Shown here: positions 1 through 63,581 of the stretch, piece by piece | How the letters are laid out: each line of letters opens with the position of its first letter | Position numbering within the stretch: position 1 is the first letter of the stretch | Assembly: GCA_037349105.1 (NCBI GenBank) | Contig: JAYJMM010000042.1 | Location: 1,591,501 to 1,655,500 of the forward strand | Length of the DNA: 64,000 nt | Source: Limnomonas spitsbergensis | Lineage: Eukaryota; Chlorophyta; Chlorophyceae; Chlamydomonadales | Direction: 5' to 3' | Position numbers and translations under genes: made by a program | The notes under the pieces: model-generated | Told to the model about the DNA's origin: nothing | The model's database searches: none | What the model saw: only the letters and a program-made list of their open reading frames with translations

Positions 1-8
1 TTATGTCT

Positions 9-62
9 TGAGGTAGACCCGAACCCAGGCAGCTTACCGTGAAGTCCATGTCCATCCGGATG
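9..62 (-). repeat. Copy of exon 30 end plus donor
   Basis: CGGATGGACATGGACTTCAC then GGTAAGCTGCCTGGGTTCGG repeats the end of exon 30 and its intron start 120 bp downstream in gene direction. The spacer (65-130) is TTTAGGG-like filler. The true next exon is outside the window. Confidence 0.85.
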
Positions 63-159
63 CAATGGATTAAGGGTATAGGGATTTAGGATTTATGGTT
101 TAGGATGTAGGGTTGAGGGTCAAGGGTTTTTGAGGTAAACCCGAACCCAGCCAGCTTAC

Positions 160-1669: not shown

Positions 1670-4600
1670 CTGAGAGATGACAGTGGGGGTGGGAGGTGGG
1701 AGGTGGGTCTACACGGGGAAGGTAATGACGCCTTGGATGGATAAGTCCAGGCACTCCTGTGCAGAGTCGAGATCCCCGAAGGACTGTTGGGAGGGGGGTA
1801 GGGAGGCGGGATGTAGGAGGTATGACAGGGGGGGAAGGAAGGGTCCAGACACTCCTGGGCAGAGTGGAGATCCCCAAAGGACTGTGGGAGAGGCATAGGG
1901 TGAGGGGACTGGGTATGAAGGACTAGAGGTTAGAGGTGGGGGACGGATTAGTCCAAGCACACCTAGACAGTGGCCTATACCCTTAACCCACCTGTGGCGC
2001 CTCGCCCTTGGTCTTTAAAATCCTGTGCTAAAAGAGACCGGACAGCATTGTGTTCCTGCAGCCTTCCTTGAGGCACAGCGACGACAAAACACGGACCCTC
2101 CTGGACCCCACCTGTGGCGACTCGCCCTTGGTCTTCAGAGTTGTGTGCAAGAAGAGACCGGACAGCATCCTGTTCTTGCAGCCTTCCTCTAAGCAGCGAT
2201 GGGGGTCAGCGTTCCACGAGTCGTATAAGTTATAGTCCGCTGTTGAGTCAAAGCTAGGGATGAGGTACCCATCGAAATCGTCGCTGTCGGCCATGCCAGT
2301 CCTGCTGGTAGAGACGCCGCTGGACCGCTGCTGCAGGCGGCGGCGGCGGCCGCCGACCGTAGCGCTGCCATCATCCGTAGCGCCTCCAACCGTATTGCCT
2401 CCAACCGTAGCGCTGCCATCATCCACATCGCTGACGGCGTGACGCGATACTTTAAAACGTATCTGTGGTGAGAGGCTATTCCGCTGCACGCAGACGATGT
2501 AGGTGGCCTGCACCATGGCCTCCGACAAGCCCAGCCCCGAGAGGACGTCGGCTGTGGAGGTCATGATGAAGCCCACTGCGGCAGTGACGACAGCCAGGCT
2601 GTTGACGGCGAGGAGAAGCATGGCCGACGCCGCCTCAGTGTTGGCAGCCTGGAGAAGCAGTAATGTCTGGTTTAGGGTTTGGAGTTTAGGGTTTAGGATG
2701 CACGGGTGTAGGGCTGAGGATTGGGGTTTGAGGTCATAGGGAGCGGCAGTTCGAGTACAGTTGGATTGAAGAGGTAAATACCACCAGTAGTACCTGGCCG
2801 AGTTGCACGGCAATCTACCCAGTGTCATAGCTGGGCGGTTGGCCTACTCATTGATCCACGCCCCAAGGCATTTTCTTGATTGATTGATTTACAGTATCAT
2901 GGACCTGATGGCAACTGATTCTGAACAGGCAAAAGGTTCCAGGACTCTTTCCAGAGACCAGCACCAGCACCAGCACCAGCACCAGCACCAGGACCAGGAC
3001 CAGCACCAGGACCAGGACCAGGACCAGGACCAGGACCAGGACCAGGACCAGGACCAGGACCAGCACCAGCACCAGCACCTCCCTTGGTCCTTAGATTCCT
3101 TGTTCCCTAGATCTCTTGATCCGCCCCAATTCCCAGGGCACACCGCCCTCCCGCCCTCGGAGGCTAGCCGCAGGCTCGTGAAGTCGTGAACCCTGAAACC
3201 CATGCACTAAGCCATGAACTGTTCAGCCCAAACCCTGAACTGTTCAGCCTGAACCCTGGACACCTGCACCACCAGGGCTTCCTCAAACACATTTCAGAGA
3301 GGAAGGAGAGGGCAGAGCAAAACACACAAGTATGTCGGTTTACAGAAGAAGGAGAGTGTTAAGCCACAAAACAAAGGGTTCAAGAAGAAGGAGAACATAA
3401 ACATCCCAAGTCATCAACACCTGTGCAGTTACATAAAAGTGGGCGAATTCTGGCCAGGACCCGCATGGAGCACCCCAAGCACCTGCACTGCCAGCGTTTC
3501 GTCCAGCAACTTCTTTAGCGTCTGGATCTGCGCAGTCACGTTGGAGTGGGCGCCGAGGGCCAGGTCCCGCATGGCTGTGAAGGCTGCCTGGGCTCTGGAG
3601 TCGTACTGGTCGAACTTGCCGAACAGGGAAAGTGTGGTGGCGGCGACAGCCGTTTGACTGGCCTGAATAACATGAAATTGTGATTGATTTAATTGATCAT
3701 TTATGAATATCTTAATTAACCACTGTAGCCGGTTATCCCTTATTTTCATCATTACCAATTTATGGATAATTCAATAGATCGCTGGAGCCGGTGATCCCTT
3801 ATTTTCATATATTCCATTGCAGGGCATGAGAGCATGCAGAGCATACAGAGTGGTGGCAGACACACCTTCTTGGCAGGCCTGGTGGCAGGCAGCAGGGGGC
3901 AGGGGGTAGGGGGCAATCAGTTACAAGTCAGGTACATGGTCCTTCAGCGACAATTCAGCTAACAAATGTTATTCATTAAAATTAGCTGCCGGTGCTGGTA
4001 GCTATTTAGCTGACTAAGGTACCGTACAGGTAGTAATCAATTCAATCTGGCGACAACTTGGCTTAGATGTAATACAGTATAAATTAATATCCGATAGATT
4101 TGGCAATTTAGAACGGTAACGGAAACGGAAAACAGAAAATCCCAGACCCTCACCTCAATACTCCTGGAGGTGTCTTCAAGGCCAGAGATGGCGCCGAAGA
4201 TGAGCGATAGCGCGATGCCGTCCGTCGAGATCGGAGCATCGCACACGGCTGTCGGCGCGGACGCAGAAACGATTGAGCCCACGGTCCCCGAGGTGTCGCC
4301 ACTCCGTGCAGCCACAGCCGCGGCAGCGGCAGACAAAGCCGCGTCGCACGCTGACGCGACGACATCCAGGAGCCGCCGTCCGTCGGGAGCACCAGCCACA
4401 GCCACGCCGCCGCCCTCGTCGACATCCTCCCTGTCCCAGCACCTCACTGTGGCCCTCGCGGCCCCGCCGCGGCGCCTTGTGCGCATCGTCGCACGGTCAG
4501 CAATGCCGTTATGCACGTTTTCTGGGCGGGCAGGCGCTTGTTGATCGGTCCTGCTGAGGCTCCTACCGAGGCCACCCACCTGCTGCTGCTGCTGTTGCCC

Positions 4601-7600
4601 CTGCAACCTCTCATCGCCTTGTTCCCCGTCATGCACCAAATCGTTGGAATCATTCACCTCATCCTCGCACCAGCCGCCCAGCATGACGACCAAGGTCTCC
4701 ATCAGCGGAGCGAGCGGCCGAGCCGCCGCGGCGCGAAGCGAGGAAGTGAGGCCAAGCATGGCAGCCTCGGCCAGGGCCAAAGCGCCGTGGGCGGTACTCG
4801 GCAGCGCATCATCAGCAGACTGCCAACCTGTATTCGGATCAGTAACATACGGATCACCGATGTTGAGGTCCCCATAGCCGTCGGCCGCATCGCCTGCTCG
4901 CTCGAAGTTGCCAGCCAGTTGGACATCATCAGCAGGGGCAGGTCCATCACCGCATAAACCGCCAGTTGCCGCGCCGTGCGCGTTCGTGGCTGCGCGTCTG
5001 AGGTCTGTGGCCACAAGGATGGCACGGGCGAGGACGGCACGGCGCACAACATTTGCCAGGGACTGCGACTGCGATGCTGGTGTCGCCGACAGCCGCCGGA
5101 CGTGTTGCGCTTGATCCTGTTGGTGCTTAGATGCATCCCAGGCCTGTGCGGCGAGCTCCAACATAAGCCGGCGGCTGCTTCCGCGCCGGCGTGTGGCGTT
5201 GGTAGACACACTAGCAGAGCCCTGCATCACAGATTGTGTAAGCTGGTACGATGCCGGTACGCTGGTACGATACCAGTACGCTGGCACGATACCAGTACGC
5301 TGGTACGCTACCGGTAAGCAGGTACGATACCGGCAAGCTGGTACGATGCCGGTACGCTGGTACGATACCGGTACGCTGGCACGATACCAGTACGCTGGTA
5401 CGCTACCGGTAAGCAGGTACGATACCGGCAAGCTGGTACGATGCCGGTACGCTGGTACGATACCGGTACGCTGGCACGATACCAGTACGCTGGTACGCTA
5501 CCGGTAAGCTGGTACGATACCGGTAAGCTGGTACGATACCGGTACGCTGGCACGATACCAGTACGCTGGTACGCTACCGGTAAGCAGGTACGATACCGGC
5601 AAGCTGGTACGATGCCGGTACGCTGGTACGATACCGGTACGCTGGTACGATACCAGTACGCTGGTACGATACCAGTACGCTGGTACGATACCAGTACGCT
5701 GGTACGCTACCGGTAAGCAGGTACGATACCGGTACGCTGGTACGATACCAGTACGCTGGTACGATACCAGTACGCTGGTACGATACCAGTACGCTGGTAC
5801 GCTACCGGTAAGCTGGTACGATACCGGTAAGCTGGTACGATACCGGTAAACTGGTACGATGCCGGTACGCTGGTACGATACCAGTACGCTGGTACGATAC
5901 CGGTACGCTGGTACGATGCCGGCATTTGAAAACTTAATAAGACCCCGGATTTTTTGTAAGCATCCAATGAGTGCTTTGGACAATAGGTGGGAGGCACACA
6001 CAGCTCATGAGCCCAGGCTGCCTGCATCCATGCCCCAGCCAGAGCGGGTCTCTCACTAGTTTAGGGTCTGGGGTTGAGGGGTTATGGGTTATGGGGTTTA
6101 GGGTTCAGGGGATTAGGGTTCAGGGGTTTAGGGTTCAGGGATTTAGGGTTCAGGGGTTTAGGGTCTCCAGCCAGAACAGCAGCCAACCCCTTAGAACCCA
6201 TAGCTCCCCAAAGGTCGAAAGCTGCCCGGCACTCAGCCCAAAGGCCCCCCCAAAGCAGATAACGACCTCCTCTGAAGGCCCAGGCCCCAAAACTCCAGCC
6301 GTCCTGTTCCTTTCAGTGCACATCAGACCACCATTGGGGGACGGCTGCGCTGACAGGGGCCAAACTTCATGAGCCGTGATGTAGCTGAGTTGTAGCTAAG
6401 GCACCTTACAATAAACAGTGCTGCCCCCAGAGGCACGGGGACATTGTAGCAGAATTGTAGCTGAAGCACAATCAGGTCAAAAGTGCCGCCTACCGAGACC
6501 ACTGATTATGTCCTTCAGCAGATAGGGGTACACGGCCGAATTGTAGCTGAAGTTTAGGTGAACTGTAGCTGAATTGTAGCGAAGATGAAGAGTGATGCCT
6601 ACCAGGGCCACGGTGACGTTGTACTTCAGCAAAATGGGGTACACAGCTGCACCCTCCAGGCCCGAGAAGTTGCCCGATGCGTTGCCGGCAAAGCTGTTGA
6701 AGGCCGCGCCCACAGATACCGATGCTGCCCGGACTGCCCGGACACGATCCGCACTGATGTTGAAGTAGCTTGGGAGGTGCTCCAGCGCCAGCTGCAGCAG
6801 GAGGCTTACATCGCTGCGAAGGGCTGCCGCGTAGGCCATGGCCGACTGGGAGTCCATGCTACGTGGTACGCGGGAGGTGATGAGTTAAATATGTTCAAGA
6901 TGACGTTGAGGATTCGAACATCCTCTCGTCTTCAGACTAAAAGTTGGTTGCATCATATGTTAAAATCCATAAAAAAAAACGATTTCCAAAAGTACCGTAG
7001 AACCGGTAGGGGTCGCGCAATTGTAGCGCTCCCTGGATTTTGATATTTTAGCAAATCGTCTGCGCAGGCAAATAAGCCAAGTGTCTGCGCAGCGCACGTA
7101 CTGCGCAGCAACCAATTTGAGCACATACTTTCATTTTCTGTGCCCGCGCACAGCTTCCAAAACAACAACTTTGCGCAAGGCAAATACCGGTAGTCGGAGG
7201 AGTAAGAGGCCGACTGCCCTGAACTGAACAGCCCTGCCTAGAAACTGCTGCTAGATAGGCGACAGCACCGTTACTATGCAGACTACTGAACATAACCTTG
7301 ATATTTTTTACCGGTAATTGGTAGTCCACGCAGCCCCCCAAATATGTTTTTGGCCTTTGACTACCAAGTTCGCGCAACGGGATTTTGGAATTATTTTTAC
7401 CGCGCATGCTGTTCGCGCACCCCCCAAAACGATTAATTCAACGCGAAGTGAAACCGGTTCTACAGTAGATCAATGAGATCGTAAGAGAAAGTGGACCTCA
7501 ACCCCAATGATACGCTTTGGCCGAATTTCTCATGGTGTGGCTTTGCTGCATTCAGCTAGAGTTTATTTGCATCCTGGTCCCTGGCTAGAGGCCTCATGTA

Positions 7601-16600: not shown

Positions 16601-19600
16601 TCGGTGCGTAGGATTGGATTTGAGGTTTAGGGTTGAGGGTTAAAACGGCGAGGGCGACCCTGGCCCAGCAAGGGGGTGGGCAACATGGGATATTCTAGCC
16701 CCTACCACGAGACGGTGCATGCCTGCATCAGTGAATCTTTTAATGCACACTAGAACATCTTGAGCAGGCATTTTGGCCACCACAGGGAAAAGGGGGTCAC
16801 GTGTCCACCTTTATCAACATACCGGTGCCCTGAAAGCAGGGGGGCTTGGTGATAAAGATAAACAGTGATAGCCTGCACAAGCAACAACGCATGCGCACAG
16901 GTATACAGGCTGAGGGTCCAGGGCTGAAGGTTTATGATCAAGGGTTAAGAGTTTAAAATGGCAAGCTCGCATTATCACTGAATCGTGCATGTGCTTGTGT
17001 GAGTTTAGGGTTAAGAGCTCAGGGCTGCTGTTTTGATTTTGGTGGCCGGTATATGTTCGTGCGCCAACAGATGCCTGACAGGGGTGCCTGGCTACTTCTG
17101 CTCATTTGTTCTATTGATACCGATTATAGACGTCAAATTTCAGTATTCCCACAAAGACAACGAAGACCACCTGGCAGTGCCCAGCCCCGCCCAAGCTGGT
17201 ACCGATACATGCCTGTAGATGTAGGGGGCGTCGGCCGGCGTGATCCTTGATGTGTCGACGGGGGTGCTGGGCTCTGAAACCTTCACCTTGACTGCCATAA
17301 GGTTGCCGGGGTTGTTGCGGGGCACCTTAACGGCGGTAGCGCCTGTGGTGCAGGCAAGCATTCTTGAGTGAGCTACAATTCAGATGCAACTTAGCTGCAA
17401 CTCAGCTACAATTTAGCTACAGTTCAGCTGCAGTTCAGCTGCAATTCAGCTACAATTCAGCAATACTTCAATTGCTGTGGGCTGCCTGGGCTACGGGCTG
17501 TGGTTTATTAAGGTCGAAATTTTGTCTGCATCGGCCCAGTGGTCGTCGATTTAGGTCGTCAAGGGCAAACTAAAAACCAATCCTGGCACCTCCAGCAGGC
17601 AGGTGCAGGCACTAGCGCAGAGCAGGTTTGGCGGACATGTTCTTCACTGGTGTCTGCCTGTCATATAACATTTTTTCGAATGGGAGTAAAGGGTCCAAAG
17701 AGGAAGCTGCTGCCCAGGATTTTTTTTATCAACACATGGTTGAGAGAGTCAGGTCCATCAGACATGCTCCCCAAAGAAAAAGAAAGCTACGCCCCATAGG
17801 AGGCGTGAAAGTTAAGGAACAGCACCTGGGCCGAAGCCACATGCTCCCCACTAAAGTCTTCAGGGTCTAAGGGCAAAGAAAGAAAGAGGGAGGGAAAGAA
17901 AGTACGCGTCTCCAAAGGAGTACATGAGGGCCATGGGCAATGTCCTACGCATCTGCTTTGGTGTCCTTGAGCAGCATTCCAATGGCCACAGCTTACTTGG
18001 TGATAAAACCTTCTCTTGGGTTGGCTGAGCAGCAAATATGTTAAACTTGGACCCTGCAGTGTGGATTTACCCCCCTTCCCTCCCACCTGGCTCCTCATAC
18101 AGCATGCCAAGGGTGGCAGATTTCTTGGTTATAACACCTTATCTCAGTTTTGACAAACAACACAATATGTCTGTCTAGCCTGGCAACTGCAGTGTGGTTT
18201 CCCTCCCCCCCTCCTCCCACCTGGATCCTCATACGGCATGCCCAGAGTGACAAAGGTGATGAGGCCCGTCTGCCCTGCCTCGTTGATGAAGCCCTTGCTC
18301 GTGTATGGCCCGGGTGTGATGGTGATGATGGGCTGCGTCGTGTCCAGGATCAGCGGCGGAACCTGGCAGACAGGATGCATGGTTCGATTTAGGGACAAGG
18401 GTTTAGGAATTAAGGTTCAGCATTTAGCGAATGGCCCGGGTGTGATGGTGATGATGGGCTGCGTCGTGTCCAGGATCAGCAGCGGAACCTGGTACGTGGG
18501 ATTTAAGGTTCAATTTAGGGACAAGGATGTAAGGTTCAGCATTTAGAGTTCAGCATTAAGCGTAGAGCACGGATGTGTGATGTTGATGGAGCGCTGCGTT
18601 TTGTCCAGTATGAGCGGCGGAACCTAGAACACGGGGTTCAGGTCAAATATAGGGATAAGGGATTAGGGTATAGGGTATGGCAGTAATGGCACTACAGCCT
18701 GGGTGTGATGGTGTGATGGTGGACTGCACCCTGTTCAGGATAAGCGGCGGCAACAGATGACAGTAAACGCTTAGAGGTGAATGGTTTCGGATTTAGGGTG
18801 CAAGGGTAAGCATATGTCCCAGGTGTGATGGTGACGGTGGGCTGCACCTTTTTCAAGATATGCGACGGCTCCAGATGGGCCGGATTTAGGGTTGAGGGTT
18901 TAGGGGATAGGGTTCAGTACTGAAGGTTAAGGGTCGAGGGTCGAGGCGGGCGCAGCTCCATGTGACCATTATTGATGTGACAGCAAAGTTGTTTGTTAAG
19001 TTCCAATGACTGGCAATTGGACTGATACAAGCAGCCTGCTAGGGGACAACAAACTGATCAAAACATTTGTCTAGCCCTGCTTCTTAAAGCATGACCCATA
19101 AACCCTTCATCAGGCTCATCACCTCAATCTGCGTCTGCTGGCCCGCCACGATGGAAAAGCTGGTCACAGTTGCGGAGCCCGCTTTGGGCTTTGAGGTCTG
19201 AGGCGTCCCGAGGGAGGGCACCCCTGCCGATGCGGCGGACAGGAAGAGCGCGGACAGCTGAGAGGAGGCGGAGCACCTGAGATGGGCATGGTGCCAATGT
19301 TCATTTAGGGGAGAGCTTCAGCTACAATTCAGTCACATCATGGCCCGCGGCCATGGGGAGGGTCTGATGCATGATGAGTGTATTTGCTGCTCGGACCGCC
19401 AGTCCTGGGTGAACATGAAGGCTTGGTCCGTGTTAGCCCGGAGGATTTCACGCTCACCGTGCCCCCAAAGTTGGCTGGGCGCTCTCTGCAATGAACCTTG
19501 GGCTGTACCCACTTCCCCATCACAGATCGTACAAACAACAGAGTTTATTTCTGTATTACCTTACCAGATATTGTCGAGAGGGGGAACCAGCCATGAGAGG

Positions 19601-22600
19601 AACGCCACGGAGGCATTGCCAATATTCTAAGTATGGAGCTTAGTCATACCGGTACCGGTCAGTGTTTCTTGTTTCGGCTATGAGGTCACCTTCAGCGGGC
19701 CGCCCGGCGGCCGCCTAAGGCCCGATTGGTACAAAACCTTGACCGACGTACCAGTGCATATTCTGGTATAAAGTTTACCAGGCACTGTCACAGTCCTGTG
19801 TACTTGATATAATCCCGGCATATATTTTTCTAGCCTTTCTTCCCAGGCACCCTCAGGATCCTTTGGGATTATTGCACTTGAGGCCACCTGGCTGTCCTCA
19901 ATGCTTATATTTGCCATACCGTTACTCCCCGTATTGAACTTGATAGACAGGCACACTCACACTTCCTTTGCGACATTGCACTTGTAGCCTGGGTCACCCC
20001 ATTGTGTGGTAGGTATTTTAGTATTTACCAGGCATTACTGTGTTCCGCTTATTAACATTTATAAATAGGCACACTCACACTCCCTTGGCAACGCTGCACT
20101 TGAGGCCAGGGTCGTCGCGGCATGTGAACTCGTCGGGAGATTCAGGAGTAGTGCATGGGTCCACCACCATAACACTGCACATTGCATGGGAGGGGGTACT
20201 TGATGTTGGTGCAGGGGGCACGCAAGCGCATGGGGGAACATGCAAGTGCATGGGGGGTGCATGTAGGTGCATGGAGGGTGCACATGGGCACATGAGGCAC
20301 TTGGGGTTGATGGGGAGTGCATGGGGGTGCATGGGGGGGGCATGTGGCGCATGGAGGCGTGCATGGATACATCGTCACAACACTGCCAGGCGCATGGGAG
20401 ACACTATGTGCTTCAGGGTGCTTACAATTCAGCTACATTCCGCGAATGCTTCATGGGCCTATCACCGTCACACTGCAGGGCGCATGGGGGGAGCAATACA
20501 TATTTTCGCCTTATTCCGCAAAATGTCAGTGGTATTTTGACCTGCAACCACATGGGCCGGACGCAGGAAGGTGCCTGCCACTTAGGCCCCCTGCTGTAGA
20601 CCGGCACCCGTTCGCCCAGCGGTGACTCCCAAGCAGCGTGCCAGGCAGTGCAGTGTGCAGTGTGCAATTGAGTCGTAATTCGGAAACCAGGTGATTCATT
20701 ACAGACCCTTTCGGATAAAAGTAGCTGACTTTGCCTTTAAATTATGCTGACTGAAACTCAGCTCTAAATCATTCAGCCAGGACCATAGTGAGCACAGCAT
20801 TGATGCCAAAGGTGGCCAACCGCACGCTAAATAAATATACCGTAGACTTGATTAACCTTCCCTCGGGTATGAAAACACATTTCTTTTCAATGCAGCCCTC
20901 AGGGCAAATTATGGACCCCAACTCTTAATTTCTGACTGAAAACTGGCGTCAATGATCAATAATTAGTATATTCATGGATCCCTCTACCCCAAACAACGTT
21001 AATTATGAGGGAAGGCAAAGCAAATCTACAGTACGGTTATACATAAAATAAACCCTGACCTGCAATAGACTTGTGTGCTGAAGCTGCCGGCGGAGCTTGT
21101 GGCCGTGTAAGTGATGACAAACGGTTGCTGGGTCACCTTGTGGGTGAAATTGACAGGTAAGCTGGCAGAGGCTGTGACGGGCAACGGGTCGGGTGACGCA
21201 GCTTCTGTGGCAAAGGCTCCTGAGAGGTTTCAAAAGGAGGAGGGAGGGCTTAAGTGGAGGAGGGAGGGCAGGGTGCCTGGGTCACTTGACTTGTGTGGCA
21301 AAAGCCGCTGGGAAGTTCATTCAGGTGTCAGGGGGTCAAACGGGGAGATTCATTCAGGGAGGTAGTTGGGGAGATTGGAGGGGGCGGATAGGTCAAGTGT
21401 GGGGGGCGGATAGGTCAAGTGTGGGGGGCGGATAGGTCAAGTGTGGGGGGCGGATAGGTCGAGTGTGGGGGGCGGATAGGTCAAGTGTGGGGGGCGGATT
21501 GGTCAAGTGTGGGGGGCGGATAGGTCAAGTGTGGGGGGCGGATAGGTCAAGTGTGGGGGGCGGATTGGTCAAGTGTGGGGGGCGGATTGGTCAAGTGTGG
21601 GGGGCGGATTGGTCAAGTGTGGGGGGCGGATTGGTCAAGTGTGGGGGGCAGATTGGTCAAGTGTGGGGGGCGGATTGGTCAAGTGTGGGGGGCGGATTGG
21701 GCACAGGACCAGTATTTCTTGTTCGGCTATAAGGCCACTTTCATCGGGCCGCCCGGCGGCCGTCTAAGGCCCAGTTGGGATGACACCTTGACCGGCCTTC
21801 TTAAAATAAACGCTACAAGTTACAGGGGGAGTACATTGCGCAGAGAATGGGTTGTATGGAAGGTGCGCTATTGGTGGCATGTGCAAGGTGGCGCAACAGG
21901 TTTGCCGACCGGCATACCTGGATCCAACCAGCTGGCGCGGATCTGCCCACCTGGATCCAACCAATTGTACTCATACATCTGCCTTCCTTTATCCAACTAG
22001 CCGTGGTCATAGATCTGCCCACCTGGATCCAACCAACTATTGCCATAGATCCACCCAACCAGATCCAATCCCCTGTTGCTGTAGATCCGCCTACCTGGAT
22101 CTAGCCAGCTTGTGTAGATATTGATGAAGACAGAGGTGCTACCCAGCAAGGTGATGTCCGGGGCCGCAGCCAGACCGCTGGTCATTGCATAGGTTGCCTT
22201 GGCGGAAGCTGAGGAGGTGTTGGTGGGGATATCCAGGCGGCCGGTTGCGCCCAGGCTCGTCTCGTACTCTGTAGGCCATGGGGGTTAATAACCTTTAGGA
22301 TTCAGGGCTTAGGGGAGCTTGTGACAATTTACGATTCAGAGTTGAAGGGAGCATGTGATAATTAACTTCAGTTGCCAGGGTAAAGGGTTTTAAGTCCAGA
22401 CCGCAACCCCTACTCAGCCTATCAAATATCGACACAGATCAGAGCAAGCCTCAGGCTGGATGCACTGCGACACCGACGAGCCAACAAAAACAAACCAAAC
22501 TACAAGCAGCCGCATGTTTTATTGTTGACACCAGGACTCGAGCTACTGTCACGGCCAACGGCCACAGGCCAATCCAGGTTTGGTCCTCATCGTCCCAACG

Positions 22601-40600: not shown

Positions 40601-43600
40601 CATACAGTGACAGGCACTGGTACATTCCATGTTATCTTCGTACCATTTACCTGACCATGAGTCAGCTGCCTACATGTCCATACATGAGGTGGCAGGCAAT
40701 CCGACAGTGACACATTTTTATGTTGCCTTCATACCCCTGACCTGACCAAGAGTCCGTCCGCCCATAAATGATGACGGTCCCAATGCTGTAGCTGGCCCCA
40801 AGGTCGACGCTGTGAGGCAGCAGGGGAGTCATGTTGAGCATTTTCCTGCTACAATTCAGCTATTATAAGGTGTTTCCGCAACAATTCAGCTACTGCGAGG
40901 TGTGCCTGCTACAGTTTTAAAGGTGTTTCTGCAACGAAATTGAGTGATTTTAAGGTGTTTCAGCTGCATCAGGGTACTATATGCCCAAGAGGGCCCTGGT
41001 GCAGCAAGGCCCCCAAGGTAGATGTTACGAGGCAGCAGCAGTGTCATTTTAGATGTTGAGCATGTGTCTGCTGCAATTTAGCTATAATAAGGAGTTTCTG
41101 CAAGAATTCAGCTACATCACGGTGTACGGCTGAGGTGGCCTGGTGCAGCAAGCAGTGCTGTGCCGATTACTGTCCTTACGGTGGCTGAATGACGTAGCTG
41201 AGTTTTAGTCACCATATTTCCAAGGCAATTTCAGATACTTTTACCACTAAGGGACCGTAATTGTTCACAAGATTTCTAGATTACAGCGCAATTGCACAGC
41301 ACTGAAAGCAAGGACCCAAGGTTAAAGTAACATCAGTGTCATGTTGCTTCAGCGAGGTGGGAGGCCTGAAAACACAATTGGGGGGCATTGATTTTTGAGT
41401 ATTTTAATTAGTGTGCGCTGGACGACCCTTGGTGGCCGCCAGTCGGCTACAACTGGGCTGATGCGGGGCAAGCATTGACTTCCCCCAATGGAGGCGGCCT
41501 GCACAGCAAGCGCCTTGCTGCACCAGGCGCATCCGGCCGCAAGCCTTCATGTACCTGACATTTAGCTGAAATTAGCTGACATGTAGCTGAAATTAGCTGA
41601 CATGTAGCTGACATGCAGCTGAAACAAACAAGAGCCTTGCAACCCATCACCTGGAATATCCCCAGTACAGTTTTCGTTTTGGCTTTGAGGCCGGCAAAGG
41701 CCCTGATGGGACCAAACCTGGACCAGCATATGGCCGGTGGCTACAGCTCATGTCTGGCCACACCTGAGGTCTCTGGCCAGAGGCCAGAGTGTAGCTGAAT
41801 TGTAGCTGAGTGGTAGGAAATAAAAGAAACTGTCAGAGTTCAAGACCTGAGCTCTGGCCATCCGACCCGGGAGGCGGAAACGGCAAAGAGTTAGGGTCTA
41901 GGGTATAGCTCAGCCTGACAGCTGTCGTCCTCACGAAGGCCTCCACAGGGTTCAGGGATCAGGGTTGAGAGTTCAGGGTTCCGAGTTCAGGGCTCAAGGT
42001 CTGGGCTGATGGTTACTGAGGGTTTAGGGTCCAGGTTACTTCCTCACCTGATCCATGGAAACCCCACTCCATTGGCGGCAACGTAAGCTGTCGAGGCGCA
42101 AGATCCCGCAGCCATATCCCCGTCCGTGTTTCCATCAGCAAGCTGTTGCATCGTCCCCGGCGTGAGCACCGTGCTGGCCCTCACGGGCTTGCCCGCGGCC
42201 AGGTTTGGCGCCTTGTGCAGCGGGACCCAATCGAAGAGCAGCGCGCGCACGAGGCCGCCGCCGGCCTTCCCGTGGATGCGGTAGAGACGCGCCGGGGAGA
42301 AGGAGGGTGCCGCGGAGTGCACCGTACCAGAGCTGGCGGTGCCGCAAGCGCCGAGGAGGCCCTGGGTCACGGTCCGCCCCGACGAGGTGGTCCAGAGGAG
42401 GCTCTGTATGTGGATGGCAGTTAAGGATGGGTCTTCCGCGCTGGTACCGTTGCCGGCGCACACAGACACAGCGGTGATGAACTCGTTGGTGGCCAGGGTC
42501 AGCCTGTACCGCACAAGGTAGGACGGGAAAGGACGAGCACTGAAGTGACTACCTGGTACATGCCGTAAGCAATGGCCATTCTATTACTGGCGCCAGCAGG
42601 TAAACGGGCGCTGTGATGTGCACAGAAAATGCATGTGCAAGCTATTAAATACCTACATAGCATTGTGCAGACAAGGCGAAGAATTGAATACTGCCCCACT
42701 GGACCTGCTAAAGCCGGTGGGAAAATGAATCAGAACCGCAAGCCGCCGTAATCAATTATCATGTGTCTTCTTTTTCTCACGGTAACGGCGCGGATGTAGC
42801 TTCGGCCCAGGCTGCGCTGTTTCCTTAACTCTCACGCCCCCCACGGGGCGTAGCTTTCTTTCTTTCTTTCTACGGGCGCTGTGGCACCTACCTCATGATG
42901 GGGTGCGTAATGAATTGATAGATTGTGGTACTGATGCCGGTTATTAATGAACATTTCGTCAGCACATAAAATTAATCGTCACCGTACCCGCACATTTGAT
43001 TTACCTTAGGAATACTACGTAATATAGCATAAACCCACAATAAATACAAAAATAATTTAATTTTATATTTAAAAAAAAAGCCCGCGGGTATTAATTAATC
43101 ACGATACTCGTATAAATGCTGCCCTTAGGGCAGAAACTACCACTGGTGATAGGTAGCCTTTGAACATATCCTTGACCCTTCATTATGAGAAATTCAATGC
43201 AAACATGCCATGAAATTAAAAATTTAAATTATAAATACGACCACCTACAGATAAATAAATATGCCCTGAGGCGTGGATTAAAGAAGCCACGGAGCCTCCC
43301 TATCGTCATGCACTTTCGTCATCACTTGAGAAGAAGGAAAGAAAGAAAACGAAACTGCCCCCCCCTCCTCCCCGCACCACCAAGATCAGGTACAGGTTAA
43401 AAAGATACGTCGGCTACTGGTTGCCGGGCTAGGGCGCGGCCGGGGGTGGGGAGAGGGACTTACGACGAGGGAAGGGTTCAGAGGGTAGAAGCCTCTTAAG
43501 GTTCCCCGGACGGTGGTGGGGGGGAGTGGATTTATGACGAGGGAAGGGTTCAGAGGGTAGAAGCCTCTTGAGGTTCCCCGGACGGTGGTGGGGGGGAGTG

Positions 43601-46600
43601 GATTTATGACGAGGGAAGGGTTCAGAGGGTAGAAGCCTCTTGAGGTTCCCCGGACGGTGGGGGGGGAGTGGATTTATGACGAGGGAAGGGTTCAGAGGCT
43701 AGAAGCCTCTTGAGGTTCCCCGGACGGTGGGGGGGGGAGTGGATTTATGACGAGGGAAGGATTCAGAGGCTAGAAGCCTCCTGAGGTTCCCCGGACGGTG
43801 GTGGGGGGGAGTGGATTTATGACGAGGGAAGGGTTCAGAGGCTAGAAGCCTCTTGAGGTTCCCCGGACGGTGGGGGGGGGAGTGGATTTATGACGAGGGA
43901 AGGGTTCAGAGGCTAGAAGCCTCTTGAGGTTCCCCGGACGGTGGTGGGGGGGAGTGGATTTATGACGAGGGAAGGGTTCAGAGGCTAGAAGCCTCTTGAG
44001 GTTCCCCGGACGGTGGGGGGGGGAGTGGATTTATGACGAGGGAAGGGTTCAGAGGCTAGAAGCCTCTTGAGGTTCCCCGGACGGTGGGGGGGGGGAGTGG
44101 ATTTATGACGAGGGAAGGGTTCAGAGGCTAGAAGCCTCTTGAGGATCCCCAGACGGTGGGGGGGGAGTGGATTTATGACGAGGGAAGGGTTCAGAGGCTA
44201 GAAGCCTCTTGAAGATCCCAGGACGGTGGTGGGGGGAGTGGATTTATGACGAGGGAAGGGTTCAGAGGCTAGAAGCCTCTTGAGGATCCCAGGACGGTGG
44301 GGGGGGGAGTGGATTTATGACGAGGGAAGGGTTCAGAGGGTAGAAGCCTCTTGAGGTTCCCCGGACGGTGGTGGGGGGAGTGGATTTATGACGAGGGAAG
44401 GGTTCAGAGGCTAGAAGCCTCTTAAGGTTCCCCGGACGGTGGTGGGGGGGAGTGGATTTATGACGAGGGAAGGGTTCAGAGGCTAGAAGCCTCTTGAGGA
44501 TCCCAGGACGGTGGTGTTGGGGATCCATCCAGAACCCATAAGGGAAGAAGACACTGCCATCCTCCTTGCTAATTAAACGCTGATCCCAAATCCCCTTAAA
44601 TGGACACACTTGCCCGTTTTCACCCCGATTCCCAATTTGCAAGTTTATTTTTTCAAAACACCATACCGTAGATTTGATTTGCCATCGCTCGATCCCTCAA
44701 CAGTATTTCCCCCACAAAATACCGCATTTGACCGGCTGTTTCTTAGACAAAGAGGCTTTTGCACATAGGCTGTTGGGTATAGGCTGTTGGGCAGACAAAA
44801 TACCACATTTGACAGGCTGTTGGAAAGCCACCCCCAAGCTCTTCACATTCTTGCAGGAACATTCATCAGTATTTGTTAAGGGTTTAGGGTTGAGGGTTGA
44901 GGGTTTAGGGTTGAGGGTTAAGTGCACCAATACCACACACACCGGCAGAGCTCATTTATACTCAGCTGTACCCAGAGCCCTAAACCCCACAGGTAAGAAA
45001 GAAAGAAAGCTACACCCTACTGGGGCGTGGAGGTTAAGGAAGCAGCGCAGCTTGTGGCCCCACAGGTAATATCTGCACCTGACCCCCCGATGTGACCGGT
45101 ATGCAGCTAGTGGCTCAGATTACCCAGCATAAGCAATTAAGCATCACGGTATCTCACGCCAGACTTCCCCCACCCCGTCCGTCAGCCATGATGTTGCTGA
45201 AACGTAGATGAAGCACCCAGAAATTAACTAAGCTGCATAACTTACTTGTCCAGCACGTCACCGTCAGCGCCTTGCGTCGACGCCAGTGTGACCCCATACG
45301 AGACCTGCATCTTGACCATGTTGCCAGCTGGCAGGGCCGCCGAGTCCGTCCACACTTCAACGGCTGAGATTGGCGCGTAGTGTGAAGCTGACAGGTAGGC
45401 CTCATCATCATACAACCCGCCCACCCACTCTCCGAAAGGACCCACAGCTTCATACCCTGAAAAATTTGTGGTTTAGGGGTGGGGGTTGAGGGTTGAGGGT
45501 TGAAGGTTGAGGGTTGAGGGTTAAGGGCACAACGTACGCTCAGTCTAAAACCCATCGCCCCTTCCCCACCTAGAGACCTCCACGAGGTCATGTCTCTGTC
45601 CCGGCTGGTGTGAATATGCAGGGCTATCAAGGGTTTGGGATCTAACGTTCGGTGCAAAACCCTCACGCATCTGCAGATTGCTCCAAGTTCACACCCATGT
45701 TCCGACCGGTGTGAATGCACCAGGACTCTGAGAGTTTGGGATTTAAGGCTCGGTGCTAAACCCTCACTTACCTGCAGATCGCTCCCAGTTCACACCCTGG
45801 TCCCGGCTGGTGTGAATGTACCAGGACTCTGAGAGTTTGGGAATTAGGGTTAAGGGCACAGCCCTCACTCCCATACAGATTGCTCCCAGTTCACCCCCCT
45901 GTCCCAACTAATGTGAATGTACCGGGATTTACAAGGTCACAGTTTCCGTTAGGGTCTAGGGTTTGAGGTACCCATTCCCTCACCTATGGACCGCTACCAA
46001 ATCTTGCCCGCCCCGGCTGGTATGGATATACCAGGCATTGAGAGTTGAAGGGCTTAGGGTGTAGGGTGAAGGTTTTAAGGTAACCCCTTCACTCACATAC
46101 AGACCGCTGCCAAGTCTCGCCCATGTCCCAGCTGGTTTGGATGTGCCAAAATATTGAGAGTTTTAGAGTTTTAGAGTTAGGGTTGGAGTGTTGGTGTTTA
46201 GGGTTTAGGCCTTTAAGGTAACCCCTTCACTCACCTACAGACCGCTGCCAAGTCTCGCCCTTGTCACGGCTGGTGTGGATATACCGGTCGTTGTCGGCGC
46301 CCATGGACAACGCAGCCATCCTGAACCCGTCGGCGGAGCAGACGGCCTTCGTGAAAATGCCGGTGCTCGTCCGAGCGGCCCAGCTGCCGCCGCCATCGTA
46401 GCTGGTGAACAGATCCCCGCCGATGACAGCTACCATGGCCAGGCCGTCGTCGGAGCTCTTGATGTCCAGCCCGGGACCGCGGGTCAGCCCGGCGGCTGCC
46501 TCTCTCCAAGTGGCGCCACCATCCGCGCTGAGGAAAACTGTGGAGTTGCTGGACTTGACCGCCGCCAGGCTGCCACCGTCATTGAAGCTGGTGAGTGCGG

Positions 46601-52028: not shown

Positions 52029-57812
<5,784 letters not shown>

Positions 57813-58384
57813 CTTGCAGGTGTCGGGGCTTGCAGATGGAGGCTTCGGCGTATAATTGACTGGATTTACTTTTGAATTAAATGCTACAGATGATGTTGAG
57901 TTTGCAAGTTATACAGGAGACGCTGGTAGGGAACGCTTGGGCGATGAAGAAACTGGTTATGACCGGTTTTACAGTCAGGTAAGTTGGACCCGATTCGAGG
58001 AACGAGGGATCGACCAAAGTAATAGAGTTCAAATGATTTTCATCTAATCGGGTGGAGTGCTACAGTGCACTTGTGCTCCGCTGCCCCGACATCATTGGGC
58101 AACGAACTTCTCACAAAACGTACTGCTTTATTTTAGAGCTAGACACCCACGTAGAGTCGGAGACGCATTGTAAAGGTTCTGTGATACAGCGCATGCGTAT
58201 TATAATTTTTATACACCGCGGTCTTGTAGGTTGAGCAGGGCCTGCAGCGAGCCTCGAAGAAGCTCCGTCTCTGAACATCATTGCTCCAAGGAAATCCCTT
58301 AAGGACGGAACAAGAGACTGACATAAAATCGAAGTTATTAGCAAGAGGAGCTCTCCTACTGCTGCTGCTGCTTCGGGCTAGGTC
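57813..58384. promoter_or_regulatory. Shared upstream region between RUVBL1 and the coiled-coil gene
   Basis: 572 bp between two divergent start codons, so both promoters must lie here or overlap. It holds AT-rich stretches (about 57,850-57,920 and 58,195-58,215) and a CTG run near 58,360 just before the plus-strand ATG. No TATA box can be called with confidence. RUVBL1 helps assemble axonemal dyneins through R2TP and the neighbour looks ciliary, so co-expression is plausible but unproven. Confidence 0.45.
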
Positions 58385-61300
58385 ATGGCGACCGGTGATA
58401 TCGAGCTAGGAGAGCTCGAGGATGTGTCGCAAAGCGAAGCTTTCAAGGTAAGGACGTGCACACCAGCGTACACCCAGGATTCCTCGGAAGTTATCCGTTT
58501 GTACGAGTGAAAATACCCAAAAGACAGGGAAGCTAAGAAGCCTGTCCGGGTATATTGAGGGCTTGGCTTGCTCTGGGTCCCCCTGAATATCTCCTTACCC
58601 TGTGCAAAGGGCTCTCCATACCAAGGCTGGAGAGACAGGAGAGGAGGAGGTTCTAAAGTGTGCAACGCACTGTACAGGCCAAACCAGACGTATGCCTTTG
58701 GTCCCATGAAGCTTGCATGCATGCAACACCTGAAGGCGCTGCATGGCACTGCCTCACTTCTCCTGGCTGGGAGGCTCGACAGTGCATGTTGCCTATGCTG
58801 CAAATGCAGAGCCATGTGCAGCATGAGCATGGCCCCAACCACCGTACGCCAAATCCTGACTGAAGCTGGCGTTGGGGTTGGGTGGTTGAGTAAACGCTAC
58901 AGCCAAAGTTGTTTATGGTGCTCACCAGACCCCCTTTGGTAGGCTGCCTGGCAGCCAATTTGGGTACAGCTGGGGCCAAACCCTGAACAGCCTGCAGCCT
59001 CTAGCCCAAGCACCTGGGCTTGCAGCTCCAGAACCGCTCGGCTAGTCCAGTGATTATTTGCTAATTGCTCTTCACAAGTGAAAAGGCATGCATAAAAAAA
59101 CACGCCATATTTTACGTCAAAATGCGTCATACATGTCATGCGTGTAACTAATACATGCTTACCCACCCCATGCAACGTCATGTGTTGGCATGCGTGAAAC
59201 CTGCCATGCATGCCATGTGCGGCCTCGCCCACCCCATGCACACAGCCGATACAGATCCTTCTTCCCCTAATCTGCACCCAATGTCTGGGAGCTGGATGCC
59301 CATGCATCATCATGCGCCAGTACAGACATCATCGGTCGGCGCATTTCCAGCGATGTCACCACTCAGAAACCTGAGCCATCAAACACGTCCAACCTTTGTT
59401 ATCTTTCATCTCGCCAGAATTGTTTTTGTCACCATGCTTCTCATTATACTTTTCGTCACCGTACTTCTTCTTGTCTCCATACTGGTGCTTCTTACTAGTT
59501 TTCATCTCACCTTACTTCTCATTGTCACACGAGTCATATGTGTAACGTGTCATACTTGCCTCTTTCACACGTTGTACGATAATCAGTGTATCTTTTTTCT
59601 GCTACAAGTCCACCTTCGACAGGCCGCCCCACGGCCGCGAAAGGCCCGATTGGGACCAAACTTGGGCCGGCCTACTACCGGTGGCCAAAGCTGCATGGCT
59701 GGCCACAAATGGGCCCCATGGCCAGAGACCGGAGTGTAGCTGACATGTAGCTGAGTCACGCTAAAATAATCACTGACGTGAATATCTTGCCGCCCCTCAG
59801 CTGTGTCAGACTGCACATCAGAGCATATTTTTCTGACCCTCTGTCCTCTCTCTGCCCTCCCCCGCGATCTAGATCCTGAACAGCCTAGTGGATGGATACG
59901 ACATTACTGTCGAGCGGGCAGACAAGAGCAAGCACCTCTATTCCAAGCTGCACTCAGTCCTGGTGGCGGCCATGACGCGCGAACGGGAGCTGCTGGATGA
60001 GGCAAAGGGGATGAAGCGCCAGCTAGATGTGGGTGTGGGGAGGGAAGGAGGGAGGGGGGGGGAGGAGATCGGGGTAGGGGTTGGACGAGGCAAAGGCGAC
60101 CAAGTGCCCAGTGAATGTGGGCGTGTGGAGGGAAGGGGGGAGGGGGGGGGGAGGAGGGGAGGTGACGGGCTGGATAAGGCAAATGGGATGAAGTGTCAAC
60201 AGGATGTGGGCATGGGGAGGGAGGAAAGGTTGTCGTGGGCAGGATGTAGGGAGGAACATCAATGGAGGAGGGGGAGGGGAATGTGTATGAGGACGAGGGA
60301 CCAAAGTGCCAACAGGGTGTGGGTGTGATAGACGATGGGGCTTTGGATGAGGCGGGCACGGACAAAAAAGGAGAATCGGAGGAGGGGGGAAATGGGGCAG
60401 GACTGATATCTGCTTCTATTACACCGTTATACCACGATGTGCCTAAGTGAATAATATAGGTCCTTATTTGTGACTCTCAACATGACTTTCTCCTGGCCTC
60501 TATCGCTACCCTCACTGTCCAAGGTCCCTGAGAGCCCCAGGGCCCTAGGGGACTGTCCAAGGGCCGGAAGAGCCCCAGGACCCTAGGGGACTGTCCAAGG
60601 GCCCCATTGGGCCTTAAGAAGACAGCAGAGGGTGTGGCTTAACTCCGTAGCAGCTGGGTTTTTGCCGTCACCCTAAACCCTGCCTCTCTTGCTCCTCCTG
60701 CAGTCCCAAGGCCCCATATTGGAGGAAGACGGAGTCGCTCTCATAGAGACATTGCGGGAGGATGTAGACTCAGCCATGGCAGAAGCGTCCTTAGCGCAGG
60801 TGAGGCTGGGGTGGAGGGTGGAGGGTTTAGGGTTTAGTGCTGCGGGTTGAGGGGTGAGTTGAAGCTGGGGTTGAGGGTGAGGGACAAGGTCTTCCTTCTG
60901 ATCGAGGCTCAGCGCGGAGGTGTGGACTCAGCCATGGTGGAAGCGTCCTTGTCGCAGATAAGACTGGGGTTGAGGGGCAGCTGCTGCCGAGGGGCACCTC
61001 TGCACTGCAGCTGCTGCCGAGGGGCACCTCTGTACCGCAGCTGCTGCCGAGGGGCACCTCTGTACCGCAGCTGCTGCCGAGAGGCACCTCTGCACCGCAG
61101 CTGCTGCCGAGGGGCACCTCTGCACCGCAGCTGCTGCGGAGGGGCACCTCTGTACCGCAGCTGCTGCCAAGGGGCACCTCTTCACCGCAGCTGCTGCAGA
61201 GGGGCACCTCTGTACCGCAGCTGCTGCAGAGGGGCACCTCTGTACCGCAGCTGCTGCCAAGGGGCACCTCTGTACCGCAGCTGCTGCCGAGGGGCACCTC

Positions 61301-63581
61301 TGCACCGCAGCTGCTGCCGAGGGGCACCTTTGTACCGCAGCTGCTGCGGAGGGGCACCTCTGTACCGTAGCTGCTGCCGAGGGGCACCTCTGTACCGCAG
61401 CTGCTGCCGCGGGGCACCTCTGCACTGCATCTGCTGCCTTCCACCAATTCTTTCCTGTAATCATTAACCCTAAGCACTAATCTCATGGAATCCCATAGAA
61501 TGTTTTCCACTTATTTAATGATCAGTCTTAACTTTTCATCACGAACCCTTCAGCCATGTGGCGTCTTGCCCCTAAAAAGCGACACCAGCTGCCACGAATG
61601 AGACGAATCCTCTTCTGCCCCTCCCTCCCATTGTGTGCTTTTGCCACCCAGGAGCGGCAGCAGCTGCTACAGCTGGAGGTGACTGACCTGCAGCGGCAAC
61701 GCAACGAGGTGGCAGCACGAGTGGAGGAGCTATCAATAGAGCAGGTGCAGTGCAGGGCAAGGTAGAGCAGGGGTGGCAGTCCTTGTTAGGATCGTGAAAT
61801 ATAGGATTCAGGCTTGTCACTGAATGCTAAGACCTAGGTTCAGATGCTGTTGCTAAAGCAGGTGTTGCACATGGCAGGGTAGAGCAGGATGCATATATAG
61901 AATAGAGCAGGTGTGGCGCAGGGCAGAGGCTGGAAGGGGTATGTCTGCCACTCTCAGGTGCCCCCCTGTGCTGTATGTCGTTGGAAGCAACCTTGGGAAT
62001 TATAACGAACAGGGTGGAAAGTATGCCGAGGTGCAAATCCTTTAAGCCGCTGACCCCCCCCCCCCCCTGAGCCCTATCCTCAAAGCACCGTGAACCCTAA
62101 GAATGCAACACCCTGAACCATGGCGACACAATGTCATAAACCCTGACCTTTGTTGCTGACCTACGTCCAGGCCGACGCGCTGATACCTTGAGATGAAGAT
62201 GCTTAATGAGGAGGTCACGAAGATACACTTTTAACCCTCAACTAGCAAGCTTGAACCCTGAAACCTGCTCCTCCTCCCCTCCCTCGGCCCCAGGCCGATG
62301 CGCTGCTCCCCATGATCGAGTCGCTCAAGGAGGAGGTCACAACGCTGTCCTCGGAAGTGGAGGTGGAGAACGAGCGGGCCGAGGCAGCCAGGCGCGATCT
62401 GGAGGGGACCAAGGAGCGGGTGTCAATGGTGGCCAAGGAGATGGAGGTCCTGGTAGATGTACGCATGGCTGAGAGGGCGGCGCTACATAAGGCGGAGCAG
62501 CTGCCTGACAAGGTACACAGGCTAAATGAGAGGAGGAAGGGTAGAGTGTTGGACATGTGCATGGCTGACAGGGGGTCAGAATTGACATGAGAGAGTGGGT
62601 CCAAAAGGTAGGTGGAAAAGTGGGGGCAAAATATAGACGGGGGAGATGGGATGTAGCGTGGTAAATGTGCACATGGCTGAAAGGGCGGCTCTTCATAAGG
62701 CGGAGCAGCTGCCTGATAAAGTACATGTGCTAAATGGGAAAGTGAAGGCAAGGGATAGATGGGAGGAGGAAGGGTAGAGAGGAGTGGATTTAGGCATGGC
62801 TGAGAGTGGGGGCACAACGTTGATGGAAAAGTGGGGGCAAAAGGTACATGGGGGAGAGGTGGCAGAAGGTAGATGGAGGGGGAGGGGTGCTGCTGGGTGG
62901 ATATACGAACAGCTGAGAGGGCTATTTGGACATTTTGTTATATCAAAGTGGTGTCGGGCCTCCTTACGTTTTTAAGCCCTACTATCGTAGCTCCGTAGCC
63001 ATGTACTGCTTGCATCATAGATACTGGGTGCAGACAGGGCTACGGCTTTGTCTTCATCCGGGGGAAACTGACTAGAAGTCCAGTTGTTGGCTGGTTGCCC
63101 TTTGACATAGACCATCTAGTTGTGTCCATGGAGGCTGTGTGATGAAGCTTCTTTCAGACGGAGGCTGTCTCAGGTGTGCTGAAGAACGTGCGAGGTCGGC
63201 TGGAATTTTAGCGCTGGAGCATCTCAACCCTGCCCCCCTCTTATAACCCCTTCTCCCTCTCCTCCTGTTACCTCAGGCTCATCGTCAGGCAGAGGCTGTC
63301 TCAGGTGTGCTGAAGAACGTGCACAGTCAGCTGAATGCAGCCCTGGAGTGCCTCAACCCTACTTCTCTTAATCCCTTCTCCCTCTCCTCCTGTTACCTCA
63401 GGCTCATCGTCAGGCGGAGGCTGTCTCAGGCGTGCTGAAGAACGTGCGAGGCCAGCTGGATGCAGCGCTGGAGCGCCTAGCGCTGGCTGAGCATCAGTAC
63501 GGGGAGGTCACGGACCGAGAGCGCACCATGCAAGAGGACCACGGCAAAGTGCTCAATGCGCTTTCAAGAGGCAGAATGCAG
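58385..63581 (+). CDS. Coiled-coil protein resembling CCDC146/MBO2 (5' part; continues past right edge)
   Basis: Six exons: 58385-58447, 59873-60028, 60704-60799, 61652-61744, 62294-62512, 63402-63581; all introns are phase 0; 269 residues so far. The N-terminus has VSQSEAFKILNSL, then K-x-x-x-Y-S-K-LH, then LLDEAK, the same order of residues as the start of CCDC146. The rest is heptad-rich coiled coil (IESLKEEVTTLSSEVEVE, ALERLALAEHQYGEV). In Chlamydomonas MBO2 is a flagellar coiled-coil protein needed for normal waveform and proximal beaks; mammalian CCDC146 acts at centrioles and sperm flagella. The ATG at 58385 is the first, followed by GTAAGG after 21 codons. It could be another ciliary coiled-coil family; the exon model is firmer than the name. 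Confidence 0.65.
60076..60360 (+). repeat. Three copies of coiled-coil gene exon 2 end
   Basis: GCTGGAT(G/A)AGGCAAA...TGAAG(C/T) followed by GTGGGTGTGG recurs near 60,085, 60,170 and 60,300-60,360, copying the end of exon 2 and its donor region. Confidence 0.7.
60982..61431. repeat. 30-bp minisatellite in intron 3 of the coiled-coil gene
   Basis: Fifteen copies of a 30-bp unit containing ggggcacctctgtaccgcag. The period is a multiple of three, so open frames exist on both strands, but the array is flanked by exons whose phases join without it. Confidence 0.93.
62165..63360 (+). repeat. Exon-edge copies around exons 5 and 6 of the coiled-coil gene
   Basis: 62,165-62,220 copies the exon 5 start with acceptor (CAGGCCGACGCGCTGAT) but gains a stop. 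62,660-62,740 copies the exon 5 end (GGCGGAGCAGCTGCCTGA). 63,160-63,245 and 63,270-63,360 copy the exon 6 start (GCGGAGGCTGTCTCAGG region), the second with an intact CTCAG acceptor. Similar copies of the exon 3 end (60,905-60,965) and exon 4 end (61,850-61,925) exist. Confidence 0.78.

Follow-up and report, generated by a model that had tools for sequence, protein, structure and literature searches.

What does it mean when the end of an exon and its splice donor, or the start of an exon and its acceptor, appear again in the adjacent intron? The question is raised by a 64,000-nucleotide stretch of the green alga Limnomonas spitsbergensis (assembly GCA_037349105.1, contig JAYJMM010000042.1, positions 1,591,501 to 1,655,500; hereafter the window), for which an initial annotation reported such copies in three unrelated genes: RUVBL1, a coiled-coil gene, and a giant gene. 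All three genes do contain them. Copying of exon edges is far above chance and extends outside the window; the copies lie in the intron beside their original, they decay, and they are anchored at junctions about twice as often as expected. We consider it probable that they are by-products of recurrent small local duplications that lengthen introns, and not a working device. The genome assembly comprises 260,248,090 bases in 124 contigs with a GC content of 54.15%, as stated in its description (PMC11228838).

RUVBL1 was solved exactly, as nine exons and eight introns, all GT-AG, read on the minus strand from 57812 to 52029 with a complete open frame of 462 amino acids. A spliced protein-to-genome aligner written for this work recovered all eight introns exactly from one protein with 50% of its residues randomised. 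A junction was scored as copied when the best local alignment (+1, -1, gap -2) included at least 8 bases on each side of the junction, scored at least 20, and paired it with sequence of the same intron at a distance of 20-500 bp. By this measure, seven of the 16 RUVBL1 exon edges have a copy in their own intron, the number first reported; a wider query (60 bases each side) gives 11 of 16, under a threshold not recalibrated for that width. The interiors of the same introns are duplicated in 32% of 898 interior tests. Six of the ten edges of five hand-placed exons are copied in the coiled-coil gene, again as originally counted. A codon-and-splice-site model of this gene, extended 10 kb further, has 15 introns, 14 of them affected, with 11 donors and 9 acceptors copied; it omits the hand-placed exon at 60704-60799 and shifts one acceptor by 12 bp relative to the hand placement, and the edges in question are thus less certain. 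The giant gene, whose edges are ab initio only, has 24 predicted introns, three of which lie inside a proline-rich repeat exon and were rejected as not credible. Copies are present at 13 of the remaining 42 edges (17 of 48 with all 24 introns); the initial count was 15.

Outside the window, we turned to dynein heavy-chain genes. The 89 matches of a Pfam search were assigned by hand to 16 loci, and six of these were sampled in part, at 20-50 kb each, on five contigs other than that of the window. Six reference proteins, of 120 listed, yielded 279 distinct introns; 228 were placed alike by all six proteins and 246 by at least four, and the other 33 were dropped. The 246 introns and those of RUVBL1 form a seven-gene set of 254, from which position profiles use the 145 introns of at least 420 bp (109 shorter ones dropped) and array counts use 252 (two over 2500 bp dropped). 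As a homology-free check, the codon-and-splice-site model was exact for 37/39, 52/52, 22/26, and 47/56 introns in four dynein genes, with its codon part trained without the tested gene and its splice weights taken from four dynein genes, two among those tested, such that the check is not fully held out. Together, 158 of the 173 homology-defined introns are exact, and coding contrast is therefore strong in this genome.

When the 145 introns of at least 420 bp are searched to 300 bp, copies turn up for 73 of the donors and 63 of the acceptors. Only five of 725 dinucleotide-shuffled introns (0.7%) score at least 20 on each of the two sides, and shuffles keeping local composition give 0.6% (donor) and 1.7% (acceptor) of 715. 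The copies are specific to their own intron: junctions matched against other introns reach a score of at least 20 in 3 of 434 donor comparisons, which is the null level, and no donor copy was found in the previous intron (0/137) and no acceptor copy in the next (0/136). Among all 254 introns, searched up to 500 bp, 98 donors and 74 acceptors are copied, with 137 introns affected at either end and 35 at both. Every gene of the set is affected, ranging from 3 of 47 acceptors in one dynein gene (C109) to 18 of 26 donors in another (C92). Of three ab initio genes that do not belong to the dynein set, two have junction copies as well, the coiled-coil gene of the window among them; the third (C109x) has no copied junction in its seven introns. 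The suggestion of a genome-wide process is thus supported as far as sampled, by six dynein genes on five other contigs and two of the three further ab initio models.

Whether the pattern is centred on junctions, as was also proposed, depends on whether coverage or placement is considered. Per position, 0.50 of the introns of at least 420 bp are duplicated at the donor junction and 0.43 at the acceptor. The share is 0.52-0.54 between 20 and 50 bp in from the donor and 0.37-0.51 further into the intron; on the exon side it drops to 0.27-0.28 by 30 bp and, by 80 bp, to 0.014 next to donors and 0.007 next to acceptors. Junction coverage is near that of the intron interior, and most of the signal is therefore general intron duplication. 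Placement of the duplications tells otherwise. There are 254 arrays in 174 of the 252 introns, 157 of them head-to-tail (the alignment covers the whole period) and 97 spaced, and 120 run from the intron over the junction into the coding exon edge. With one further array that lies wholly in the downstream exon by the original sorting, 121 of 254 count as junction spanning, against 66.5 expected when each intron is shrunk by its other arrays (growth-corrected), which allows for introns that were shorter at the time their arrays formed; the excess is 58 against 39.3 for head-to-tail arrays and 63 against 27.3 for spaced ones. By these two measures, which differ in how large an effect they show, the proposed centring on junctions is partly supported.

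Because conserved exon letters could keep old copies visible for longer, the placement test was repeated with exon letters hidden. Growth-corrected, 95 of 217 arrays still touch a junction (55 donor and 40 acceptor), against 48.2-48.4 expected; the counts are 34 of 75 against 14.1 for arrays with an identity of at least 0.88, and 75 of 162 against 37.5 with low-complexity arrays removed. Low-complexity, G-rich or C-rich intron ends were controlled for by local shuffles, which give 16.3 spurious arrays (mean of ten) against the 217 observed and 0.3 against 162 at a dinucleotide entropy of at least 3. In the three further ab initio genes (31 introns; the coiled-coil gene is one of them), 13 of 38 arrays are at junctions, against 5.5 expected. 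We take the junction bias as real and about twofold, ranging from 1.5 to 2.5 by class.

A stricter self-alignment of the 252 introns gives 102 junction pairs (57 donor and 45 acceptor), in which the copied unit comprises the exon edge, the splice site, and adjoining intron, and lies near the original. The nearest copy is offset by a median of 88 bp at donors and 103 bp at acceptors, and 79 of the 102 fall inside the 35-130-bp spacing originally described. Fifty-two pairs are head-to-tail and 50 have a gap of more than 5 bp, with 7 to 169 bp of intervening sequence. Exon sequence makes up 8-80 bp of the unit (median, 27 bp), and the host exons have a median of 162.5 bp. Copy identity is 0.84 (donor) and 0.88 (acceptor) in the exon part and 0.76 and 0.80 in the intron part, with an overall median of about 0.83. 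Two details of the first description do not stand. Copies were said usually to decay with distance; among 42 junctions with at least two copies, the far copy has the lower similarity in 22 and the higher in 18, with two ties, and identity of the nearest copy is not clearly related to offset (Spearman -0.12; P, 0.22). Spacers were said to be often TTTAGGG-like, but only 9 of the 50 fillers contain a telomere-like heptamer, the figure for random pieces of intron being 3.8 (P, 0.0125). In five pairs with an identity of at least 0.92, the match ends within 8-12 bp of the splice site on the intron side and is followed by unrelated filler, telomere-like in places. As for the proposal that copying could lengthen introns, its support is correlational: the median length is 553 bp for the 101 introns with a junction-spanning array, 481 bp for those with other arrays, and 334 bp for the 78 without any. 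Arrays spanning or within 8 bp of a junction hold 31% of intron bases, and interior arrays hold 13%.

Telomere-like heptamers are enriched in the window in their own right, and in introns they show a strong strand bias. In four stretches of the window (24000-34700 left out), TTTAGGG-type heptamers exceed the shuffle mean by a factor of 4.7-9 on the plus strand and 1.8-12 on the minus strand. On the sense strand of the 254 introns there are 1027 in the CCCTAAA orientation and 190 in the TTTAGGG orientation, in 72 and 45 introns, respectively; for 19 other heptamer cycles of matching composition, the medians are 54 and 48. TTTAGGG is unevenly spread along introns, with 104 in the first quarter and 13 and 14 in the last two, and it may be avoided toward the 3' part because TTTAG before G resembles an acceptor. 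We also note that, among 211 introns of at least 300 bp, GGG has a frequency of 0.086 after donors against 0.031 in mid-intron, and CCC 0.118 before acceptors against 0.037.

Some copies keep usable splice signals, as first suggested. GT is kept in 45 of 57 donor copies and AG in 35 of 45 acceptor copies, where about 40 and 34.5 would be expected from the squared identity of the exon part, and the copy scores at least as high as the real site at 27 of 54 scorable donors and 15 of 43 scorable acceptors. Per-base conservation of the splice core is 0.87 at donors and 0.88 at acceptors. The copied splice sites lose their identity at about the rate of the copied exon letters, as expected if the original is under constraint and the copy decays freely; the cores of the 57 donor and 45 acceptor copies reveal no selection for decoys and no marked selection against them. 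By protein homology, the exon-proximal site is the one in use, and the homology models need no new intron. Decoy splicing and the seeding of new exons, both raised by the initial annotation, would on this sequence evidence be potential roles only. Many introns hold, in the space of about 200 bp, at least two donors or acceptors that are nearly identical, and homology points to use of the outermost one; they amount to a natural experiment in splice-site choice.

Several explanations other than recurrent local duplication can be weighed against these data. If selection maintained the copies as decoys or as splice sites in reserve, the many good signals among them would be understandable; the splice core, however, is conserved no clearly better than the copied exon letters (0.87 against 0.84 at donors and 0.88 against 0.88 at acceptors), and we reject this improbable account. 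The copies might instead be remnants of intron birth, in which an exon piece containing AGGT is duplicated in tandem; this is a documented route of intron gain (PMC3443670, PMC2891723, PMC4974935), and the pattern, too, involves local tandem duplication. This account predicts that donor and acceptor surroundings are alike in register, and yet none of the 254 introns reaches 18/27 exon-end or 20/30 intron-start matches and the means are at the null; as the visible origin of the present introns it is contradicted and very unlikely, though introns may have been born in this way too long ago to be recognised. Introner-like elements or transposons inserted at junctions could supply the 7 to 169 bp separating 50 of the 102 pairs, but what is repeated is the edge of the host exon, and its confinement to its own intron contradicts mobile elements as the source of the copies (the fillers themselves lie outside this search); we give this origin very little credence. 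Assemblies are known to struggle with tandem arrays, and one copy (C86, intron 22) is identical to its original over 104 letters. A median copy identity of about 0.83 is too diverged for a copying error of the assembly, which is therefore extremely unlikely; the assembly description (PMC11228838) also mentions long reads, with an L50 of 32.9 kb, and the use of PacBio and Illumina reads for polishing.

Two further accounts accept local duplication and differ over the junction bias. Duplication may be uniform, without junction preference, and exon edges swept in since units crossing the border are tolerated. The near-equal coverage of junctions and interiors agrees with this, as do the interior tests in RUVBL1 and the short-period (<40 bp) head-to-tail arrays, which with exons visible are placed at junctions 7 times against 6.9 expected and so speak against a bias. 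The same class with exon letters hidden, not growth-corrected, is in excess (12 donor and 6 acceptor of 67, against 2.8 each), and the overall placement counts, growth-corrected with exons visible or hidden, are also not those of uniform placement, which we regard as unlikely. Alternatively, duplications might be uniform in origin and those beside the junction last longer, since the deletions that remove them would often cross the splice site and be purged. Survivorship of this kind is consistent with an effect at both intron ends and with a crowding of array starts near the edge of the intron, where the first 20 bp hold 24 and the two following 20-bp bins 9 and 5. It is at odds with an excess that, with exon letters hidden, is at least as strong in younger arrays as in all arrays; identity is an imperfect clock, because exchange between copies can refresh arrays, and we hold survivorship to be possible if doubtful. 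A mutational hotspot is favoured because the bias persists in these younger arrays, and we tentatively suggest, at no great confidence, that exon-intron borders are hotspots in this lineage, where something connected with transcription, splicing, or chromatin at both intron ends makes DNA break or switch template and carries exon edges and their splice sites inward time after time.

Some observations sit poorly with the by-product interpretation. The junction excess itself is not predicted by pure neutrality with uniform placement, and it is uneven: it is small among the head-to-tail arrays with exons visible; the youngest of these (identity of at least 0.92) show no donor excess (3 against 2.8) with an acceptor excess of 9 against 2.8; and C109 has only 7 junction arrays against 4.8 expected, with 1 against 2.4 at its acceptors. 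The exon part never exceeds 60% of the copied unit (0/102) and is more than half in 11 of 102, where uniform breakpoints would give about 51, a shortfall that may reflect either restricted breakpoints or selection acting against copies rich in exon sequence. Telomere-like sequence is only mildly enriched in the fillers, and neither G-runs at donors nor C-runs at acceptors predict which junctions are copied. Clean young two-copy duplications readable for microhomology number only eight, too few to be informative.

We nonetheless favour recurrent local duplication as the source of the copies. The genome would undergo frequent small tandem duplications, those spanning junctions having offsets of about 45-200 bp and lying head-to-tail or with a short filler. 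Within coding exons such events are presumably purged. Where the duplicated piece spans a border, the exon-proximal splice site would stay in use and the protein unchanged, and it is this continued use that would make the duplication tolerable; the second exon edge and splice site, left within the intron, may multiply and decay as the intron lengthens. That local duplication is general follows from intron interiors being nearly as repetitive as junctions. Tandem duplications of tens to hundreds of bases, with or without filler, can result from template switching and from the repair of nearby nicks or staggered breaks, and the algal duplications may originate in this way. The copies are probably nearly neutral, and the bias would reflect either a breakage or switching hotspot at both intron ends or longer survival beside a border that deletions may not cross. 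Chlamydomonas reinhardtii has a very low rate of homologous recombination, and an end-joining view of intron gain and loss is cited in the same source (PMC8226300), a background that suits the duplication interpretation. If the hotspot is real, borders would be where introns grow, and a large fraction of the introns in the genome would test how the spliceosome chooses the exon-proximal site among near-identical ones; a mutational bias would also link gene structure to where DNA duplicates. Intron growth is readable here, as the original exon edge, which selection keeps constant, reveals which sequence was copied, in which direction, and roughly when.

Table 1. Junction originals and their intronic copies in the window (positions are those of the window)
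Feature	Position	Strand	Remarks
RUVBL1 gene	52029..57812	-	Exact exon chain, one open frame; all eight introns regained by spliced aligner
RUVBL1 intron 2 donor junction, original	56620..56695	-	Score 32
Copy of RUVBL1 exon 2 end and donor	56517..56592	-	Pair of 56620..56695
RUVBL1 intron 5 acceptor junction, original	54377..54461	-	Score 41
Copy of acceptor and RUVBL1 exon 6 start, upstream in gene	54487..54571	-	Pair of 54377..54461
RUVBL1 intron 6 donor junction, original	54239..54330	-	Score 43
Copy of RUVBL1 exon 6 end, donor decayed	54077..54167	-	Pair of 54239..54330
Copy of acceptor and RUVBL1 exon 7 start	54032..54075	-	Original 53802-53841; score 20
RUVBL1 intron 7 donor array, exon 7 end and donor	53234..53729	-	66-bp unit, 7.5 copies (TRF); score 58
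Copy of RUVBL1 exon 8 end and donor	52547..52607	-	Original 52761-52821; score 31
Copy of acceptor and RUVBL1 exon 9 start	52451..52510	-	Original 52144-52202; score 25, wide window
Coiled-coil exon end and donor, copy	60073..60174	+	Original 59985-60085; period about 88 bp
Coiled-coil exon end and donor, copy	60898..60976	+	Original 60740-60818; hand-placed exon absent from ab initio model
Coiled-coil exon end and donor, copy	61878..61940	+	Original 61708-61774; score 24
Coiled-coil exon end and donor, copy	62661..62782	+	Original 62453-62572
Coiled-coil acceptor and exon start, copy	63214..63336	+	Original 63343-63461; period about 125 bp
Coiled-coil exon end and donor, G-rich copy, weak case	63628..63693	+	Original 63574-63641; score 38, wide window
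Giant gene ab initio intron, donor copy	45364..46234	-	Score 60
Giant gene ab initio intron, donor copy	17343..18220	-	Score 42
Giant gene ab initio intron, acceptor copy	18363..19122	-	Score 58
Giant gene ab initio intron, donor and acceptor copies	1670..2111	-	Scores 30 (donor) and 39 (acceptor)

In the RUVBL1 intron 7 array, the real exon edge is the first copy in gene direction. Two originals in Table 1 have a separate copy under the standard measure: the RUVBL1 exon 9 acceptor has a nearer one 200 bp from the junction (score 24), and the last coiled-coil donor has a different one at a distance of 23 (score 24). Elsewhere in the window, minus-strand frames are open for thousands of codons at 24061..35389, where 60-bp and 180-bp repeats encode proline-rich and HPHHFLRLPRSLALP-type peptides, and large minisatellites with periods of 19, 22, 52, and 71 bp are present at 5238..5922, 21380..21700, 38700..39889, and 43437..44523.

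A screen of the 120 dynein proteins for near-tandem peptides gave one match among 12 named proteins (P0046, of Chlamydomonas sp. UWO 241) and one among the other 108; none was found in the proteins of two further relatives (P0043 and P0071). The P0046 match is an 18-residue near-tandem repeat at residues about 2568-2605, not seen at that place in P0001, P0002, or P0005, and could be a junction copy in a relative that was either misread or used. The screen is too thin for claiming the pattern in relatives.

How does the pattern compare with systems already described? Introner elements are repeats tied to introns across many genes, with sequence common to different introns; the algal copies are likewise tied to introns across many genes, but they match other introns at chance level (3/434) and are therefore not introner-like. 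In tandem exon duplication, exon sequence is copied into the adjoining intron. The algal units, in contrast, carry an 8-80-bp edge with one junction, from host exons with a median of 162.5 bp, and copies were not seen across the exon (0/137 and 0/136) nor were copies of entire exons; tandem exon duplication was therefore rejected, and we note that the array counts searched exon flanks to 120 bp. Like intronic minisatellites, most of the algal arrays (157/254) are head-to-tail, and unlike them, 120 of 254 cross the junction into a coding exon edge.

The AGGT tandem-duplication model of intron gain, as set out in its sources (PMC3443670, PMC2891723), also invokes tandem duplication of sequence carrying splice signals and predicts donor and acceptor surroundings alike in register, a likeness found in none of the 254 algal introns. 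The nearest described case that we found is the potato RdRp gene, in which, according to the report (PMC4974935), one tandem duplication crosses an intron-exon boundary and creates a new intron. Both involve local tandem duplication over a junction that doubles a splice site (in potato, the 3' splice site) and the exon edge; the potato event is single and makes a new intron, whereas about half of the tested algal introns are affected and their homology models require no new intron. No report of junction copies across a genome was found in a literature search of incomplete coverage. On present evidence, the sequence patterns are not those of newly born introns, of a mobile element, or of decoys under selection, and they most likely represent intron growth by recurrent local duplication that repeatedly takes in the edges of exons.

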